From: Armatimonadota bacterium
GTDB lineage: Bacteria; Armatimonadota; UBA5829
Assembly: GCA_026392045.1 (NCBI GenBank)
Contig: JAPLCU010000035.1
Coordinates: 1-50,744, forward strand
Direction: 5' to 3'
Length of the DNA: 50,744 nt
A model generated the notes under the pieces. That model had not been told where the DNA came from, did no database searches, and saw only the letters and a program-made list of their open reading frames with translations. The position numbers and the translations under genes were made by a program. Position 1 is the first letter of the stretch. Every line of letters begins with the position of its first letter. Of the stretch, positions 31,000-43,831 are shown in pieces.

Positions 31000-31096
31000 G
31001 GGGGCGGATTGGGCCTGGTGGCTTGCCTGGTCTTCAAAACCTGTGTGACGTCTGAGTAAGGCGTTGGGTGAGTTCGATTCTCACACGCTCCCGCCA
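31000..31096 (+). tRNA. selC: tRNA-Sec (anticodon UCA, 31034..31036)
   Basis: 97 nt: extended acceptor GGGGGCGG/ACGCTCCC, 6-bp D stem, anticodon loop CTTCAAA, long variable arm (ACGTC/GGCGT), T arm GTGAG-TTCGATT-CTCAC, encoded GCCA 3' end. Confidence 0.95.
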
Positions 31097-33780: not shown

Positions 33781-34002
33781 AGTCTAATTCTATACTTGCA
33801 GGAGGTCTGAGTCAAATAGGTGATGGGTGCTGGGTGTTGGGTGATGGGTGTTGGGTGTTGGGTGCTGGGTGTTGGGGAGGGCGAAGCTCCCGCTGAGCCT
33901 CGGTGTTTCGGGATTTGAATGGAGCCGCAGGCGGAATGGAAATCCCGAAACCTCCCATTCGTTGTTCGGGAAACCCTTTTCCCGAAACCTCCGAACCTAT
34001 CC

Positions 34003-34746
34003 CTACCTCTGCGCCATAGAAAACAGCGCATCGCCAAGGCCGACGTTTGCCTTCACGTTCTTGTATTTCACGCTGCCGAGCTCATTGTTTTTGCCATCAT
34101 ACATCGTGCACATGGTAGCAATCGGAAGCTTGCCTGCGAGGGTTTCAAAGTCGGAATAGACCATTCTCACCCGCATTTCGCCGCTGCCTCGGTATTTCTC
34201 GCGTTTTAAGACTTTTAGGGTGGCGGGGTCGATCCACACCATATCGTGGCGTTTATCGGCGCCGCCTGCTTTGGGGTCAAATTTAAGTTTCAGGCTATTC
34301 TTTGCGCTCGATACCACGCTAACGTTGTTATCCGTCCAAAGCTTGCTTGTGAGGAACCCGAGGTCGAGGGAGTCCTGACGCTTGCCGGGGGCTTCTTTGA
34401 CGTTTTCTTTCTTGCGAATCATCGCGGCAAGAATCAGCTTTTCGCAGCCTTTTTGTATGTATGCGGCGCGAATTCCCTTTGCATAGCCGTCATATCTGAT
34501 CATGTCCGGCTTCTTATACTGAATAATCGCCTTTTCGAGCTTGAGAATATCGCTGTAGCCCTCACCCATGCCTGACACATTTTTCTTGTTTGCCTCGGTA
34601 ATCACCATATCGGCCTTGAAGTCCTTAAGGCTTGCTTCGGCTGCTTTAACTTTCTTCAGAATGTCCGCCGAGCTCACCGCCCATGCAGACGAAGCGAGCA
34701 TGCCCAGTGCAAGTGCGATTGCGACTCCTATAGATAATTTCTTCAT
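34003..34746 (-). CDS. LolA-like outer-membrane lipoprotein-sorting/carrier protein
   Basis: Signal peptide; ADILKKVKAAEASLKDFKADMVITEAN...DMIRYDGYAKGIRAAYIQKG...VRMVYSDFETLAGKLPIATMCTMYDGKN. Confidence 0.75.
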   Translation of the reverse strand: MKKLSIGVAIALALGMLASSAWAVSSADILKKVKAAEASLKDFKADMVITEANKKNVSGMGEGYSDILKLEKAIIQYKKPDMIRYDGYAKGIRAAYIQKGCEKLILAAMIRKKENVKEAPGKRQDSLDLGFLTSKLWTDNNVSVVSSAKNSLKLKFDPKAGGADKRHDMVWIDPATLKVLKREKYRGSGEMRVRMVYSDFETLAGKLPIATMCTMYDGKNNELGSVKYKNVKANVGLGDALFSMAQR

Positions 34747-34898
34747 ATCAAAAGGCTCCTTTGAGTAGTTACATATTATAATAGACTCCTGCGAGAGCCT
34801 GATATTGACCGCTATTCATGATAGACGTTTCGATAAATGTTGACAAGTTGGCCGATTTGCTGCTAAAATCACGGTAATCAACCATAATAAGGATAGAT

Positions 34899-35015
34899 AT
34901 GAGCGCATTATTGATTACAGATATTCATACCGGCCCAATAGCAACCCCGAAACGTCGTTTTGGGCGTCGCGAGCGTTCGCGCCTGCCGTGGCCGGGGATG
35001 ATGCGTCTAGTTTAA
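34899..35015 (+). CDS. candidate Arg-rich leader peptide (38 aa; absent from ORF track)
   Basis: AAGGATAGAT then ATG: MSALLITDIHTGPIATPKRRFGRRERSRLPWPGMMRLV*; 6 Arg within 10 residues; terminator then argB downstream. Confidence 0.65.
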   Translation: MSALLITDIHTGPIATPKRRFGRRERSRLPWPGMMRLV

Positions 35016-35038
35016 GTATTATCCGAACATGCAGTTTG

Positions 35039-35067
35039 AAGCCGCGGCACACTTTCCGCGGCTTTTT
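35039..35067 (+). terminator. rho-independent terminator / putative attenuator upstream of argB
   Basis: AAGCCGCGG-CACACTTT-CCGCGGCTT followed by TTT. Confidence 0.85.
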
Positions 35068-35184
35068 GTATTAAAGGCACAAGAGGTTGATATGCGGAGC
35101 CCAGCATCCTGAGCCATCCTGAGGCTCTCGAAGGACGAAGGGTGCGGCAAATATCAACTAAGCTCTCGATTAAAGGGGACCCAA

Positions 35185-36036
35185 ATGAATTACACAAGTG
35201 AACAGGCCAATATACTCGTCCATGCGCTGCCGTATATTCAGAAATACTACGGCAAGACCATCGTGATCAAATACGGCGGCAACGCTATGATAGACGAAAA
35301 ACTTAAGATGAGCGTGGTGCGGGATGTCGTTTTGATGCATTATGTCGGCATGAAGCCGATTCTGGTGCACGGCGGCGGACCGGAAATCAGCGCTATGATG
35401 AAAAAAATGGGCAAGGAGCCTGAGTTTATCAATGGTAAACGGGTAACTGATGCTGAGACCATGGATATAGTCGAAATGGCGCTCGCAGGCAAGGTCAACA
35501 AGGGCATTGTGAGCATAATCAACATCCTCGGCGGCAAAGCCGTCGGCTTATCGGGCAAGGACGCCAACCTGATAGTCGCCGAGAAGACAGAAGAGGATTT
35601 GGGGTTCGTCGGCAAGGTCAAGAAGATCAACCCGGAGATTCTGACCGATCTCCTGGAGCACAGCTATATACCGGTGGTGTCGAGCGTGGCGATAGGCGAA
35701 AACGGCGAGAGCTTCAACGTAAACGCAGACCACATCGCAGGCGAGATAGCCGCAGAGCTCAAAGCCGCCAAGCTGATTATGATGACGGATGTGCCAGGCA
35801 TTTACTCGGATTTCAGCAATAAATCGACATTTATTTCAGAACTCACGGTGTCCGACGCGAAGAAGATGATCGAAACCAGGCAGATCGACAAAGGGATGAT
35901 TCCCAAGGTGGAGGCCTGCATGACAGCGCTGTCCGGCGCAGTCGAACGCACCCACATAATAGACGGCACAATGCCGCACTCGCTTTTGATGGAGATTTTT
36001 ACGGATACGGGCATTGGGACGATGATAGTGCCCTGA
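35185..36036 (+). CDS. argB: acetylglutamate kinase
   Basis: IVIKYGGNAMIDEKLKMSVVRDVVLMHYVGMKPILVHGGGPEIS. Confidence 0.97.
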   Translation: MNYTSEQANILVHALPYIQKYYGKTIVIKYGGNAMIDEKLKMSVVRDVVLMHYVGMKPILVHGGGPEISAMMKKMGKEPEFINGKRVTDAETMDIVEMALAGKVNKGIVSIINILGGKAVGLSGKDANLIVAEKTEEDLGFVGKVKKINPEILTDLLEHSYIPVVSSVAIGENGESFNVNADHIAGEIAAELKAAKLIMMTDVPGIYSDFSNKSTFISELTVSDAKKMIETRQIDKGMIPKVEACMTALSGAVERTHIIDGTMPHSLLMEIFTDTGIGTMIVP

Positions 36037-36904: not shown

Positions 36905-37309
36905 ATGGACAGCGTGGTATCCGAAAAAGGCTATGACTTTGGAAAGGACACTTCCGGAATTATCGGAGCGGCAATCGAAACGCACAAAGAACTTGGGGCG
37001 GGTTTTCAGGAAGTGGTTTATCAAAGAGCTTTGGCTCTTGAGCTGGAAGCGGCTGGAATTGAGTTTACTCGTGAAGTCAACGTGCCCGTGTTTTACAAAG
37101 GCAAGCACATCGATACCAGGCGGGTTGATTTTGTGATCGGCGACTGTATTGTGGAGATAAAGGCAAGGAAAGAACTCCTTGCTGAAGATTTTATCCAGAC
37201 GCTTTCTTATCTTAGAGCATCGGGGTATAAAGTTGCGTTGCTGCTCAATTTTGGAGCACAAAAGCTGGAAATCAAACGTTTTGCTAATGATCGGGCGCAT
37301 AGCGAGTAG
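36905..37309 (+). CDS. GxxExxY protein (PDDEXK_3-like), copy 1
   Basis: SGIIGAAIETHKELGAGFQEVVYQRALALELEAAGIEFTREVNVPVFYKGKHIDTRRVDFVIGDCIVEIKARKEL. Confidence 0.9.
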   Translation: MDSVVSEKGYDFGKDTSGIIGAAIETHKELGAGFQEVVYQRALALELEAAGIEFTREVNVPVFYKGKHIDTRRVDFVIGDCIVEIKARKELLAEDFIQTLSYLRASGYKVALLLNFGAQKLEIKRFANDRAHSE

Positions 37310-37871: not shown

Positions 37872-38102
37872 AGTTGGATTTCGGCTTGACCGGGAATCCA
37901 GGACTCCCTCGCCCTTTAATGGAGAGGGCTGGGGTGAGGGTAAAGGCCTTTGATCTCATGGATAAGGCAAAGCGTCAATCCTTGCATTTCGCGTAATCCG
38001 CGATTCAATGGACGGGCGGTTTCGGGATGTGCTAAGTAGTTGAATCGCGGATTACGCGGATGCTATCGGATTTCGCGGAAGCTAGAGGCGAGGGATATTC
38101 GA

Positions 38103-38504
38103 ATGAGTGTTACGTCCGAAAAAGGCTATGACTTTGGAAAGGACACTTCCGGAATTATCGGAGCGGCAATCGAAACGCACAAAGAACTTGGAGCGGGTTT
38201 CCAGGAAGTCGTGTATCAAAGAGCTTTGGCTCTTGAGCTGGAAGCAGCTGGAATTGAGTTCACCCGTGAAGTCAACGTGCCCGTGTTTTACAAAGGCAAG
38301 CACATCGATACCAGGCGGGTTGATTTTGTGATCGGCGACTGTATTGTGGAGATAAAGGCAAGGAAAGAGCTGTTGCCTGAAGATCTTATACAGACGCTTT
38401 CTTATCTTAGAGCATCGGGGTATAAAGTTGCGTTGCTGCTCAATTTTGGAGCCCAAAAGCTGGAAATCAAACGTTTTGCAAACGATCGGGCGCATCGCGA
38501 GTAG
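38103..38504 (+). CDS. GxxExxY protein (PDDEXK_3-like), copy 2
   Basis: Nearly identical to 36905..37309 (MSVTSEKGYDFGKDTSGIIGAAIETHKELGAGFQEVVYQRA). Confidence 0.9.
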   Translation: MSVTSEKGYDFGKDTSGIIGAAIETHKELGAGFQEVVYQRALALELEAAGIEFTREVNVPVFYKGKHIDTRRVDFVIGDCIVEIKARKELLPEDLIQTLSYLRASGYKVALLLNFGAQKLEIKRFANDRAHRE

Positions 38505-39816: not shown

Positions 39817-41004
39817 ATGATAACCAACGAATCAATCAACGCAGCCGAAGTAATGGCGCTTGATAAAGAATATGTAATGCACACCTATGGCCGGTTGCCG
39901 GTGGTGTTTGTTCGGGGTGAGGGGTGCTTTGTCTATGATGCGGCGGGCAAGGAGTATTTGGACTTCGTCGCCGGAATCGCGGTTAACGGCCTGGGGCATT
40001 GCCCGCCGAAAGTGGTCGAGGCTATATGCAAGCAGGCTGGGACTCTAATTCATACGAGCAATCTCTATTACACCACGCTTCAGCCGCAGCTTGCGAAGCT
40101 ATTGGTCGAGCTTTCGGGGATGGGTAAGGCGTTCTTTTGCAATTCGGGCGCTGAAGCCAATGAGGCTGCGATTAAGCTTGCGCGGAAAGCTGCTAAGGCT
40201 TCAGGCAATCCGAACAAGAGCAATATTGTGACGGCTGAGCAGTCTTTCCACGGCCGAACCCTCGCGGCGATCACCGCAACGGGCCAGCCGAAGTATCAGA
40301 AATCGTTCACCCCTCTGGTTCCGGGATTTGGCTATATACCTTATAATGATGTTGAGGCGCTCAAGGCTGCGGTGAATGACGACACCTGCGCGGTTATGAT
40401 GGAGCCGGTGCAGGGCGAGAGCGGAGTCCACCCGGCCACGCTTGAGTTTCTAACGGCTGCGCGCGAGCTGTGCGATAAGTTTGACGCAGCGCTGATTTTC
40501 GATGAGGTGCAGACGGGCCTAGGGCGAACGGGTAAAATGTTCGGCTTCGAGCATTTCGGATTGAAACCCGATGTAATGACCCTCGCAAAGACCCTCGGCG
40601 GAGGTTTCCCAATCGGGGCTTGCCTTGCTGCGGGTAAATATGCAGATACTTTCGAGCCCGGCGACCATGCTTCCACTTTCGGCGGCACTCCGCTTGCATG
40701 CGCGGCGGGTATCGCCACCGTTTCAGAGATAATCGAAGGCAGATGGGCAGTCAACGCGGCTGAGGTCGGCGAGTATTTTAGAGCGCAGCTTGCGACGCTG
40801 CCCGGGATCAAAGAGGTGCGCGGGCTGGGGTTGATGATCGCGGCTGAGTTTACCGAACCGATAGCAAAGGATATGGCGGCGAAAGCGCTCGAAAATGGCC
40901 TGATTGTAAACCCAATCGGCGAGAACATTCTGCGCTTCGTCCCGCCGCTTATTGTCACAAAAGCGCTGGTGGATAGAGCGATGGCTACGCTTCGCGAGTG
41001 CTGA
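39817..41004 (+). CDS. argD: acetylornithine aminotransferase
   Basis: DFVAGIAVNGLGHCPPKVV...FCNSGAEANEAAIKLARK...LIFDEVQTGLGRTGKMFG...MTLAKTLGGGFPIGA. Confidence 0.96.
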   Translation: MITNESINAAEVMALDKEYVMHTYGRLPVVFVRGEGCFVYDAAGKEYLDFVAGIAVNGLGHCPPKVVEAICKQAGTLIHTSNLYYTTLQPQLAKLLVELSGMGKAFFCNSGAEANEAAIKLARKAAKASGNPNKSNIVTAEQSFHGRTLAAITATGQPKYQKSFTPLVPGFGYIPYNDVEALKAAVNDDTCAVMMEPVQGESGVHPATLEFLTAARELCDKFDAALIFDEVQTGLGRTGKMFGFEHFGLKPDVMTLAKTLGGGFPIGACLAAGKYADTFEPGDHASTFGGTPLACAAGIATVSEIIEGRWAVNAAEVGEYFRAQLATLPGIKEVRGLGLMIAAEFTEPIAKDMAAKALENGLIVNPIGENILRFVPPLIVTKALVDRAMATLREC

Positions 41005-41193: not shown

Positions 41194-42150
41194 ATGCAAA
41201 CACTCATCGAGGCAGGAAAACGGCTCAAAGGCCGAAGTCTTCTCGGCATATCAGACCTCACCAAGGCCGAAATAGATGCCATATTCGATATATCAAAACA
41301 GCTCAAAGAGCTTATAATATCGCCCGCCGATCAGCGCAAAATCTTAGAAGGTAAAACCCTTGCTATGATCTTTGAAAAACCGAGTTTGCGGACGCGGGTA
41401 TCGTTTGAAACAGGCATTTTCCAGCTCGGCGGGCATGGGATTTTCCTCGGCCCCAGCGATATCAGCCTGGGCAAGCGCGAGAGCATCAGCGACATAGCCA
41501 ATAATCTCGGGCGGATGGTGGACATCATCATGGCGCGGGTTTTTGCGCACAGCTCAGTGGTTGGGCTTGCAGAAAATGCCGGCGTTCCGGTGATTAACGG
41601 CCTCTGCGATATGGAGCACCCATGCCAGGCGCTGGCGGATTTTCAGACAATAATTGAGCACAAAGGCAAGCTTGAGGGTCTGAAGCTGGCGTTCGTCGGC
41701 GACGGCAACAACGTCGCGCACTCGCTCATGCTGCTTGCGGCAAAAGTGGGAACGAACTTCGCCATCGGCTGCCCCAAAGGCTACGAACCCGACGCAAACA
41801 TAGTCGCGCAAGCCAAAGAATTCGCCAAAGAAACCGGCGCAGTGATCGAAATATTCAACGATCCCGCAGCCGCAGCCAAAGCCGCCGATATTGTCTACAC
41901 AGACGTCTGGGCAAGTATGGGCCAGGAATCCGAAGCCGCCGCACGAGAGAAAATATTCACGCCGTTCCAGGTAAACTCTGCTCTAATGGCAAATGCCAAA
42001 CCAGACGCCATATTCATGCACTGCCTACCCGCCCACAGAGGTTCGGAAGTGACAGACGAAGTAATAGACTCGCCGCAAAGCGTCGTTTTCGACGAAGCGG
42101 AAAATAGATTGCATGCGCAGAAGGCGGTGATGGTATTACTAGGGAGATGA
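41194..42150 (+). CDS. argF: ornithine carbamoyltransferase
   Basis: FEKPSLRTRVSFETGIFQLGG...HPCQALADFQTI...FMHCLPAHRGSEVTDEVID. Confidence 0.97.
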   Translation: MQTLIEAGKRLKGRSLLGISDLTKAEIDAIFDISKQLKELIISPADQRKILEGKTLAMIFEKPSLRTRVSFETGIFQLGGHGIFLGPSDISLGKRESISDIANNLGRMVDIIMARVFAHSSVVGLAENAGVPVINGLCDMEHPCQALADFQTIIEHKGKLEGLKLAFVGDGNNVAHSLMLLAAKVGTNFAIGCPKGYEPDANIVAQAKEFAKETGAVIEIFNDPAAAAKAADIVYTDVWASMGQESEAAAREKIFTPFQVNSALMANAKPDAIFMHCLPAHRGSEVTDEVIDSPQSVVFDEAENRLHAQKAVMVLLGR

Positions 42151-42637: not shown

Positions 42638-43831
42638 ATGCCAAAAAAGACTGTTCTTATCGTCTACTCCGGGGGGCTCGATACCTCCGTTTGCATCCCT
42701 ATGATGCGCGAGGATTATGGGTTTGACCATGTGGTCACGGTTACCGTGGACGTTGGTCTGCCCGCAGGTGAACTGAAGCAGGCCGAGGAAAAGGCCAAGC
42801 TTCTGGGCACCGAGCACTATTCAATCGATGCGCGGGAGGAGTTCGTCACAGACTACATCTTCCCCGCAATCAAGGCCAATGGCGATTACCAGGGCTATCC
42901 AATAAGCACCTCAATTGCAAGGCCGTTGATTGCTATGAAAGCGGTGGAGGTCGCGAAGAAGCTCAATGTGGATGCGTTTTGCCACGGCTGCACCGGCAAA
43001 GGAAACGATCAGTTCAGGTTCGAGTTTGTCATGCGCACTTTCATGCCGGATACACCCATCATCGCCCCCATGCGCGAGCACACTATGACCCGCACATGGG
43101 AAATCGAATACGCTCAGAAGAAGGGTATCCCAATCGGCCAGAGCATTAATAAAATCTGGAGTATTGATGAGAACCTCTGGGGGCGCTCGATAGAGGGCGG
43201 GCTTCTTGAGGAGCCGAATTACGCTCCGCCGGAGGAGATTTTCACCTGGACCAAGAGCTGGAAAAATGCGAAATCCACCCCAACCGAGGTCACAATCGAG
43301 TTTGCGAATGGCGTGCCTGTCGCTATCGATGGCGTGAAGATGAGCCCGCTGGATTTGATCCTCAAGGCGCATGAAATCGCCGGTGACAACGGCGTGGGCA
43401 GAGTGGACATCATGGAAGACCGCATGATCGGCCTCAAGGTGCGTGAAAACTACGAGTGCCCAGCCGCAAGAATAATTATTCCTGCGCATAAGGCGCTCGA
43501 AGACCTCGTCTGCACCACCGAGGAGCGCGCTTTCAAGGTTCTGGTAGACCAGAAATGGGGCGAACTCGCCTACGAAGGCCTGTGGTTCGACCCGTTCAAA
43601 GACGACCTGGAAGCGTTCATCAACCAAATCCAGCCGCGCGTAACCGGCGCCGTCACCCTGCGCCTGTTCAAGGGCAGCTGCCAGGTGATAGGCCGCGCAA
43701 GCAAATACGCGCTCTACAACGAAGACCTTGCATCGTTCGATAGCAAGACCTTCGACCAAAGCGAGGCCGTCGGCATAGTCAAAACCCACGGCATGCAGGC
43801 GAGAATGTATCGGACTGTTAAGGATAAGTAG
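42638..43831 (+). CDS. argG: argininosuccinate synthase
   Basis: KTVLIVYSGGLDTSVCIPMM...CTGKGNDQFRFE...SIDENLWGRSIEGG. Confidence 0.97.
   Translation: MPKKTVLIVYSGGLDTSVCIPMMREDYGFDHVVTVTVDVGLPAGELKQAEEKAKLLGTEHYSIDAREEFVTDYIFPAIKANGDYQGYPISTSIARPLIAMKAVEVAKKLNVDAFCHGCTGKGNDQFRFEFVMRTFMPDTPIIAPMREHTMTRTWEIEYAQKKGIPIGQSINKIWSIDENLWGRSIEGGLLEEPNYAPPEEIFTWTKSWKNAKSTPTEVTIEFANGVPVAIDGVKMSPLDLILKAHEIAGDNGVGRVDIMEDRMIGLKVRENYECPAARIIIPAHKALEDLVCTTEERAFKVLVDQKWGELAYEGLWFDPFKDDLEAFINQIQPRVTGAVTLRLFKGSCQVIGRASKYALYNEDLASFDSKTFDQSEAVGIVKTHGMQARMYRTVKDK

Follow-up and report, generated by a model that had tools for sequence, protein, structure and literature searches.

Codon-sensing attenuators are the textbook control of the trp, his, leu, ilv, thr and phe operons, and the regulator usually named for arginine synthesis is ArgR. 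Sensing of arginine through a leader RNA has been described in other settings. In the Salmonella orf34-speF leader, the progress of the ribosome over consecutive Arg codons senses arginine and switches RNA folds; the leader controls ornithine decarboxylase, acting through Rho, access to the ribosome-binding site and RNase G and not through an intrinsic terminator (PMC6386406). The rbfL leader ORF of Staphylococcus aureus senses charged Arg-tRNA and blocks translation initiation of the biofilm regulator rbf, so that low arginine turns the gene off (PMC13009471). The arginine T-boxes of Firmicutes (mentioned in PMC1262725) also control arginine genes at the RNA level by tRNA charging, and in these an untranslated leader is bound directly by uncharged tRNA. 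Leader-peptide attenuation of a bacterial arginine-biosynthesis operon was not found in the open-access library that was searched. Arginine does not appear in the main text of Naville and Gautheret 2010.

We analyzed a 50,744-nt stretch of DNA from an Armatimonadota bacterium (the window), for which a preliminary description had claimed a 38-aa Arg-rich ORF, a terminator and a competing pairing before argB. All three lie where it had placed them (Table 1). Our analysis suggests that the element is very probably a ribosome-mediated transcription attenuator that senses Arg-tRNA charging and serves arginine biosynthesis. Like the trp, his, leu, thr and phe attenuators, it has a short leader ORF with runs of end-product codons and a terminator before the structural genes, and the competing antiterminator uses the 5' arm of the terminator. 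It is unlike them in the amino acid, here arginine, and in the phylum, Armatimonadota; moreover, region 2 lies inside the ORF, so that a terminating ribosome would stand behind region 2 and not on it, and a 1:2 protector is not clearly present. Judged by sequence comparison, the leader most likely works as the classical attenuators do, and we infer its translation, the stalling, the sign of the response and the kinetic competition. It resembles orf34-speF in its consecutive Arg codons, although the peptides are unrelated and the window leader has an intrinsic terminator. It would share with rbfL the sensing of charged Arg-tRNA by a leader ORF, with the opposite sign of response. An Rfam scan of the window at the gathering threshold returned only a tRNA-Sec, with no T-box or other known cis-regulatory RNA.

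Control by the ArgR repressor would have the same physiological goal, but it requires a protein repressor. Neither ArgR domain (PF01316, PF02863) was found in any of 61 genomes of the phylum, whereas the same searches were positive in 8–9 of 14 control genomes. The earlier remark that an arginine leader would be unusual, since arginine genes are usually ArgR-controlled, therefore holds even more strongly here. If the attenuator is real, it would show how a lineage without a detected ArgR domain can regulate its arginine pathway, it would extend ribosome-mediated attenuation to a new amino acid and a new phylum, and it would provide a compact arginine-starvation sensor.

Table 1. Features of the putative arginine attenuator and its target genes (positions in the window).
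Feature	Position	Strand	Remarks
Leader promoter, TTGACA-18-TAAAAT, TG 5' of the -10	34840..34869	+	11 of 12 consensus matches
SD-like AAGGA, 5 nt 5' of the leader ATG	34889..34893	+	read directly from the sequence
Leader ORF, 38 codons, Arg-rich	34899..35015	+	homologous leaders of 37-39 aa in six genomes
Possible region 1, CCGGCC in Thr-Gly-Pro codons	34930..34935	+	complementary to 34990-34995
Putative sensor codons Arg19, 20, 23, 24, 26, 28	34953..34982	+	seen in the sequence; relatives retain Arg but swap its codons
Region 2, antiterminator 5' strand, TGCCGTGGC	34984..34992	+	same register in all eight complete leaders
Helper hairpin between regions 2 and 3, GGATGATGC/GTATTATCC	34996..35024	+	holds the leader stop codon
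Region 3, antiterminator 3' strand, GCCGCGGCA	35041..35049	+	35041-35047 also within the terminator 5' arm
Intrinsic terminator (regions 3:4), U-tract to 35067	35038..35067	+	arms 35039-35047 / 35056-35064, 9-bp main stem
argB, N-acetylglutamate kinase, first cluster gene	35185..36036	+	TIGR00761, 262.8 bits (cut-off 151.3)
argD, acetylornithine aminotransferase	39817..41004	+	ORF; name from sequence and gene order
argF, ornithine carbamoyltransferase	41194..42150	+	TIGR00658, E 9e-130 at 41233-42138
argG, argininosuccinate synthase	42638..43831	+	TIGR00032, E 9e-152 at 42653-43822

The window leader encodes the peptide MSALLITDIHTGPIATPKRRFGRRERSRLPWPGMMRLV, in which R36 is a further Arg codon outside the main cluster. 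We read the sequence before argB at 30 loci, that of the window and those of relatives, in argB orientation and found homologous leaders in six genomes from two genera of one Armatimonadota family, namely the window's genome and five relatives (G002, G007, G011, G013 and G014) that all belong to one other genus. The leader is absent from most of the family. The TTGACA box and a TG-N-TANAAT -10 are kept in all six leader-bearing genomes, and an AATAGGA-type sequence occupies the SD position in several of the relatives. The core RRLRARRAYLPRPEGMR is common to most of the peptides, and an Arg-rich core is present in every one, its Arg codons clustered ahead of region 2, with synonymous swaps among CGT, CGC, CGA and AGA. 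The preliminary description had made its reading depend on conservation of the leader in frame and of its Arg codons, and both are conserved. Within region 2, by contrast, every Pro that occurs is encoded by CCG, and the five leaders that have Arg at position 31 all use CGG for it, as the RNA pairing would require. Codon swaps outside and fixed codons inside region 2 would be expected of a sequence that serves as coding sequence and as RNA structure at once. One leader matched a centriole helix in Pfam, weakly and under the family cut-off, and this match was ignored.

The leader was also sought beyond the family. Model R1 gave E-values of 2e-16 to 3e-44 for the six argB leaders; apart from these, the best value across 291 genomes of the phylum was 1.4e-8. 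The layout CCGYGGC-N30-60-GCCGCGG-N3-14-CCGCGGC occurred six times in 28 genomes: in four argB leaders, in one related leader and in one chance match. The last (G016:C55) is the end of a Pro-rich gene and was rejected as a leader. When 78 argB loci across taxa were scanned for an Arg-rich ORF with a terminator, the combination was seen at the G011 locus and at none of the 77 others.

The 2:3 helix has 9 bp, including one G-U pair. Its pairing energy in the window (-18.3 kcal/mol) gave p = 0.059 against dinucleotide shuffles, which makes the helix marginal from the window sequence alone, and the overall folding of the window leader was modest (z = -2.1). Because this p-value leaves the single sequence undecided, conservation decides. 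In three relatives the 2:3 pairing reached p = 0.004–0.009; in G011 it gave p = 0.35, and the best duplex of that leader lies elsewhere. A single register of the helix holds in all five complete argB leaders: 92.5% of its cells are paired, versus 30–42% in slid registers. When three leaders of a methyltransferase gene (see below) were added, the values for the eight complete leaders were 95.3% versus 30–44%, and this set includes one C-G to U-A change. However, 182 of 500 pair shuffles reached the 2:3 score, so that its covariation is not significant, because the sequences are few and similar. Thus, the case is made by register and position rather than by covariation. The terminator, at 35038-35065, is the only terminator-like site found in 34700-35300, where shuffles give 0.6, and all cells of its 9-bp stem are paired in the five complete argB leaders, including one A-U/G-C compensatory pair.

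We then considered these folds with a ribosome placed on the leader. With the ribosome set at the first Arg codons and region 3 just emerged, 2:3 was the minimum free energy (MFE) fold in all five complete argB leaders, and the probability of region 3 pairing with region 2 was 0.85–1.00 when the ribosome edge was just before region 2. The helper hairpin belonged to the MFE antiterminator fold with the ribosome at Arg19. The claimed arrangement of 2:3 versus 3:4 is thus borne out by the conserved register, the terminator stem and the placed-ribosome folds. For the full-length leader at equilibrium, the folding model nearly always favored the terminator; therefore, the choice of the switch must be kinetic, as in other attenuators. 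Without any ribosome, the model also preferred 2:3 in unstalled leaders before region 4 is made. The region 1:2 complementarity extends over 6 bp in four of the five argB leaders, is broken in G011 and showed no predicted competition with 2:3, so that a 1:2 protector hairpin is a weak candidate. Since this protector is poorly supported and 2:3 is predicted to form without a ribosome, the proposed off state would depend on the ribosome itself. Equilibrium favoring 3:4 and unstalled RNA forming 2:3 together mean that all would hinge on kinetics and on a ribosome that keeps 2:3 from forming.

The proposed mechanism is as follows. RNA polymerase would start near 34875, and a ribosome would then begin the 38-codon leader. 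If little charged Arg-tRNA is available, the ribosome would stall at the Arg codons (34953-34970) and leave region 2 free to pair with region 3, aided by the helper hairpin; no terminator would form, and argB and then argDFG would be transcribed. When arginine is plentiful, the ribosome would cross region 2 and reach the stop codon. There it is expected to cover about 34996-35026, just behind region 2 and on top of the helper hairpin, where it would hinder 2:3; 3:4 would then form and transcription would end near 35067. The gap between region 2 and the stop codon is 19 nt in every complete copy, and region 2 abuts the expected footprint of a ribosome at the leader stop without overlapping it. 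This invariant spacing provides a precise hypothesis for how the terminating ribosome may set the switch.

We are confident from its sequence that argB encodes N-acetylglutamate kinase. The N-terminal segment of the protein could be aligned to 2bty, 2buf and 2jj4, the Thermotoga maritima, Pseudomonas aeruginosa and Synechococcus enzymes, which are of the arginine-inhibited type; 1gs5, the Escherichia coli enzyme, did not align with it. The leader had been described as standing before argB, and argB does lie directly 3' of it in five of the six genomes (the G014 contig ends inside the leader region). The target is nevertheless probably the argBDFG cluster and not argB alone: the leader heads argB-argD-argF-argG in the same order in the window and four relatives, and genes 74–78% identical to argD follow argB in four relatives. 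In the window, argD, argF and argG are on the same strand as argB, 3.8 kb of unrelated ORFs separate argB from argD, and on the plus strand no strong terminator was detected from argB to argG. This insert is absent in G007 and G013. It contains two near-identical copies of a GxxExxY-like ORF (36905-37309 and 38040-38504). In the leader-bearing genomes no attenuator was found before argC; argC and argJ lie together elsewhere, without the leader-terminator layout.

A second promoter bears on how far argB depends on the leader. A promoter-like TTGACK-17-TACCAT lies between the terminator and argB in G002, G007 and G011, and before argB in the leaderless G003 and G008 (loci L003, L005, L002, L009 and L010 overall). 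It has the look of an ancestral argB promoter, in front of which the attenuated one would have been added, and it has apparently disappeared from G013 and the window. In the window, no such site was found between the terminator and argB; in G013, these are only about 25 nt apart, which leaves no room for one. Thus, the attenuator would not be the sole control in G002, G007 and G011, where it would govern part of transcription, and in G013 and the window argB should depend on read-through. The preliminary reading as an attenuator is largely upheld, with the amendments that the 1:2 protector is weak, that region 2 lies in the ORF and that some relatives have a second promoter. The window carries a repeat-like element, CATCCTGAG..CTCTCGAAGGA, at 35100-35150, in the place of the relatives' second promoter.

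The same promoter-like site would suit a different explanation, in which the leader is a separate small gene that has a promoter and a terminator of its own and just happens to neighbor argB, and argB is transcribed from a downstream promoter. We consider this very unlikely, because G013 and the window lack the site and because it leaves unexplained both the conserved antiterminator inside the ORF, in register with the terminator, and the invariant placement before argB. Neither does the terminator belong to an unrelated upstream transcript, which the preliminary description had named as a risk: the gene on that side (34003-34746) points away from the leader, which has a promoter of its own. 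That an ordinary Arg-rich ORF lies beside a terminator by chance is compatible with the p-value of 0.059 for the window alone, yet it is extremely improbable given conservation at the same locus across two genera with fixed spacing, and the homologous leaders already refute it.

The fixed 19-nt spacing can also be read as a sign of nascent-peptide arrest, in which the leader peptide together with free arginine or a related metabolite would stall the ribosome near the C-terminus, mask region 2 and stop transcription. The output would be the same, and the sensor would be a peptide with a metabolite, as is the case for SpeFL and for the fungal arginine attenuator peptide. The constant leader length agrees with this, as does the C-terminus, which is LPRPxGMR in four leaders and LPWPGMMR in the window. 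However, the C-terminus of G011 diverges (MRPDRSGLV), region 2 pairing already accounts for the invariant CCG Pro codons, and the many Arg codons would be unneeded. No match to a known arrest-peptide family was found, the SpeFL/ORF34 family PF10940 being absent in the two argB leaders scanned. We therefore regard peptide arrest as unlikely. Arg-x-Arg motifs are known macrolide arrest motifs, and the leaders contain RLR and RER/RSR, as would a drug-inducible leader that senses ribosome inhibitors through them. An Arg-Leu-Arg uORF has been reported, with the motif linked to antibiotic leaders (PMC8632094). Such a role is hardly credible here, since arginine biosynthesis lies downstream in every checkable case and there are more Arg codons than such a motif needs.

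Attenuation by Arg-tRNA charging, the reading we prefer, may have a counterpart with another sensor. Model R1 found two distant leaders, with E-values of 1.4e-8 and 5.5e-6, in G016 (L133/L181, G016:C168) and G003 (L134, G003:C145), and there is a third in G008 (L182, G008:C8). All three precede a class I SAM-dependent methyltransferase gene; one of these leaders is MRKNLNNINTGLYLNAMALCVNRLALRVNLINVICAPRPPGESLL. They have the promoter type, the NTG/HSG motif, the PRP-like region 2, the 19-nt spacing and the terminator of the argB leaders, with VNLINVI-like codons in place of the Arg codons. The [IV][NT]VI stretch resembles the IFVI of ErmCL. Model R2, built from all eight complete leaders, gave the nine known leaders E-values of 5e-9 or better in 291 genomes, and the rest 3e-5 or weaker; the weaker matches that were inspected looked like plain terminators or gene ends and were rejected as members. 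Tentatively, and with somewhat less than even confidence, the argB leader may be one edition of an exchangeable cassette, in which sensor codons are swapped on a fixed RNA switch in a phylum without ArgR. The cassette would consist of the promoter, the NTG motif, the sensor codons, the PRP-encoding region 2, 19 nt, the stop codon and the GCCGCGG terminator, with Arg codons before argBDFG and a VNLINVI-like stretch before the SAM methyltransferase gene.

Some further features of the window were observed. The divergent gene upstream of the leader, at 34003-34746 on the minus strand, encodes a LolA-like outer-membrane lipoprotein-sorting protein (PF17131), and a low-complexity TGGGTGTTGGGTGATGGG-type repeat occupies 33825-33880. 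The tRNA-Sec gene lies at 31000-31096, and the organism probably uses selenocysteine.
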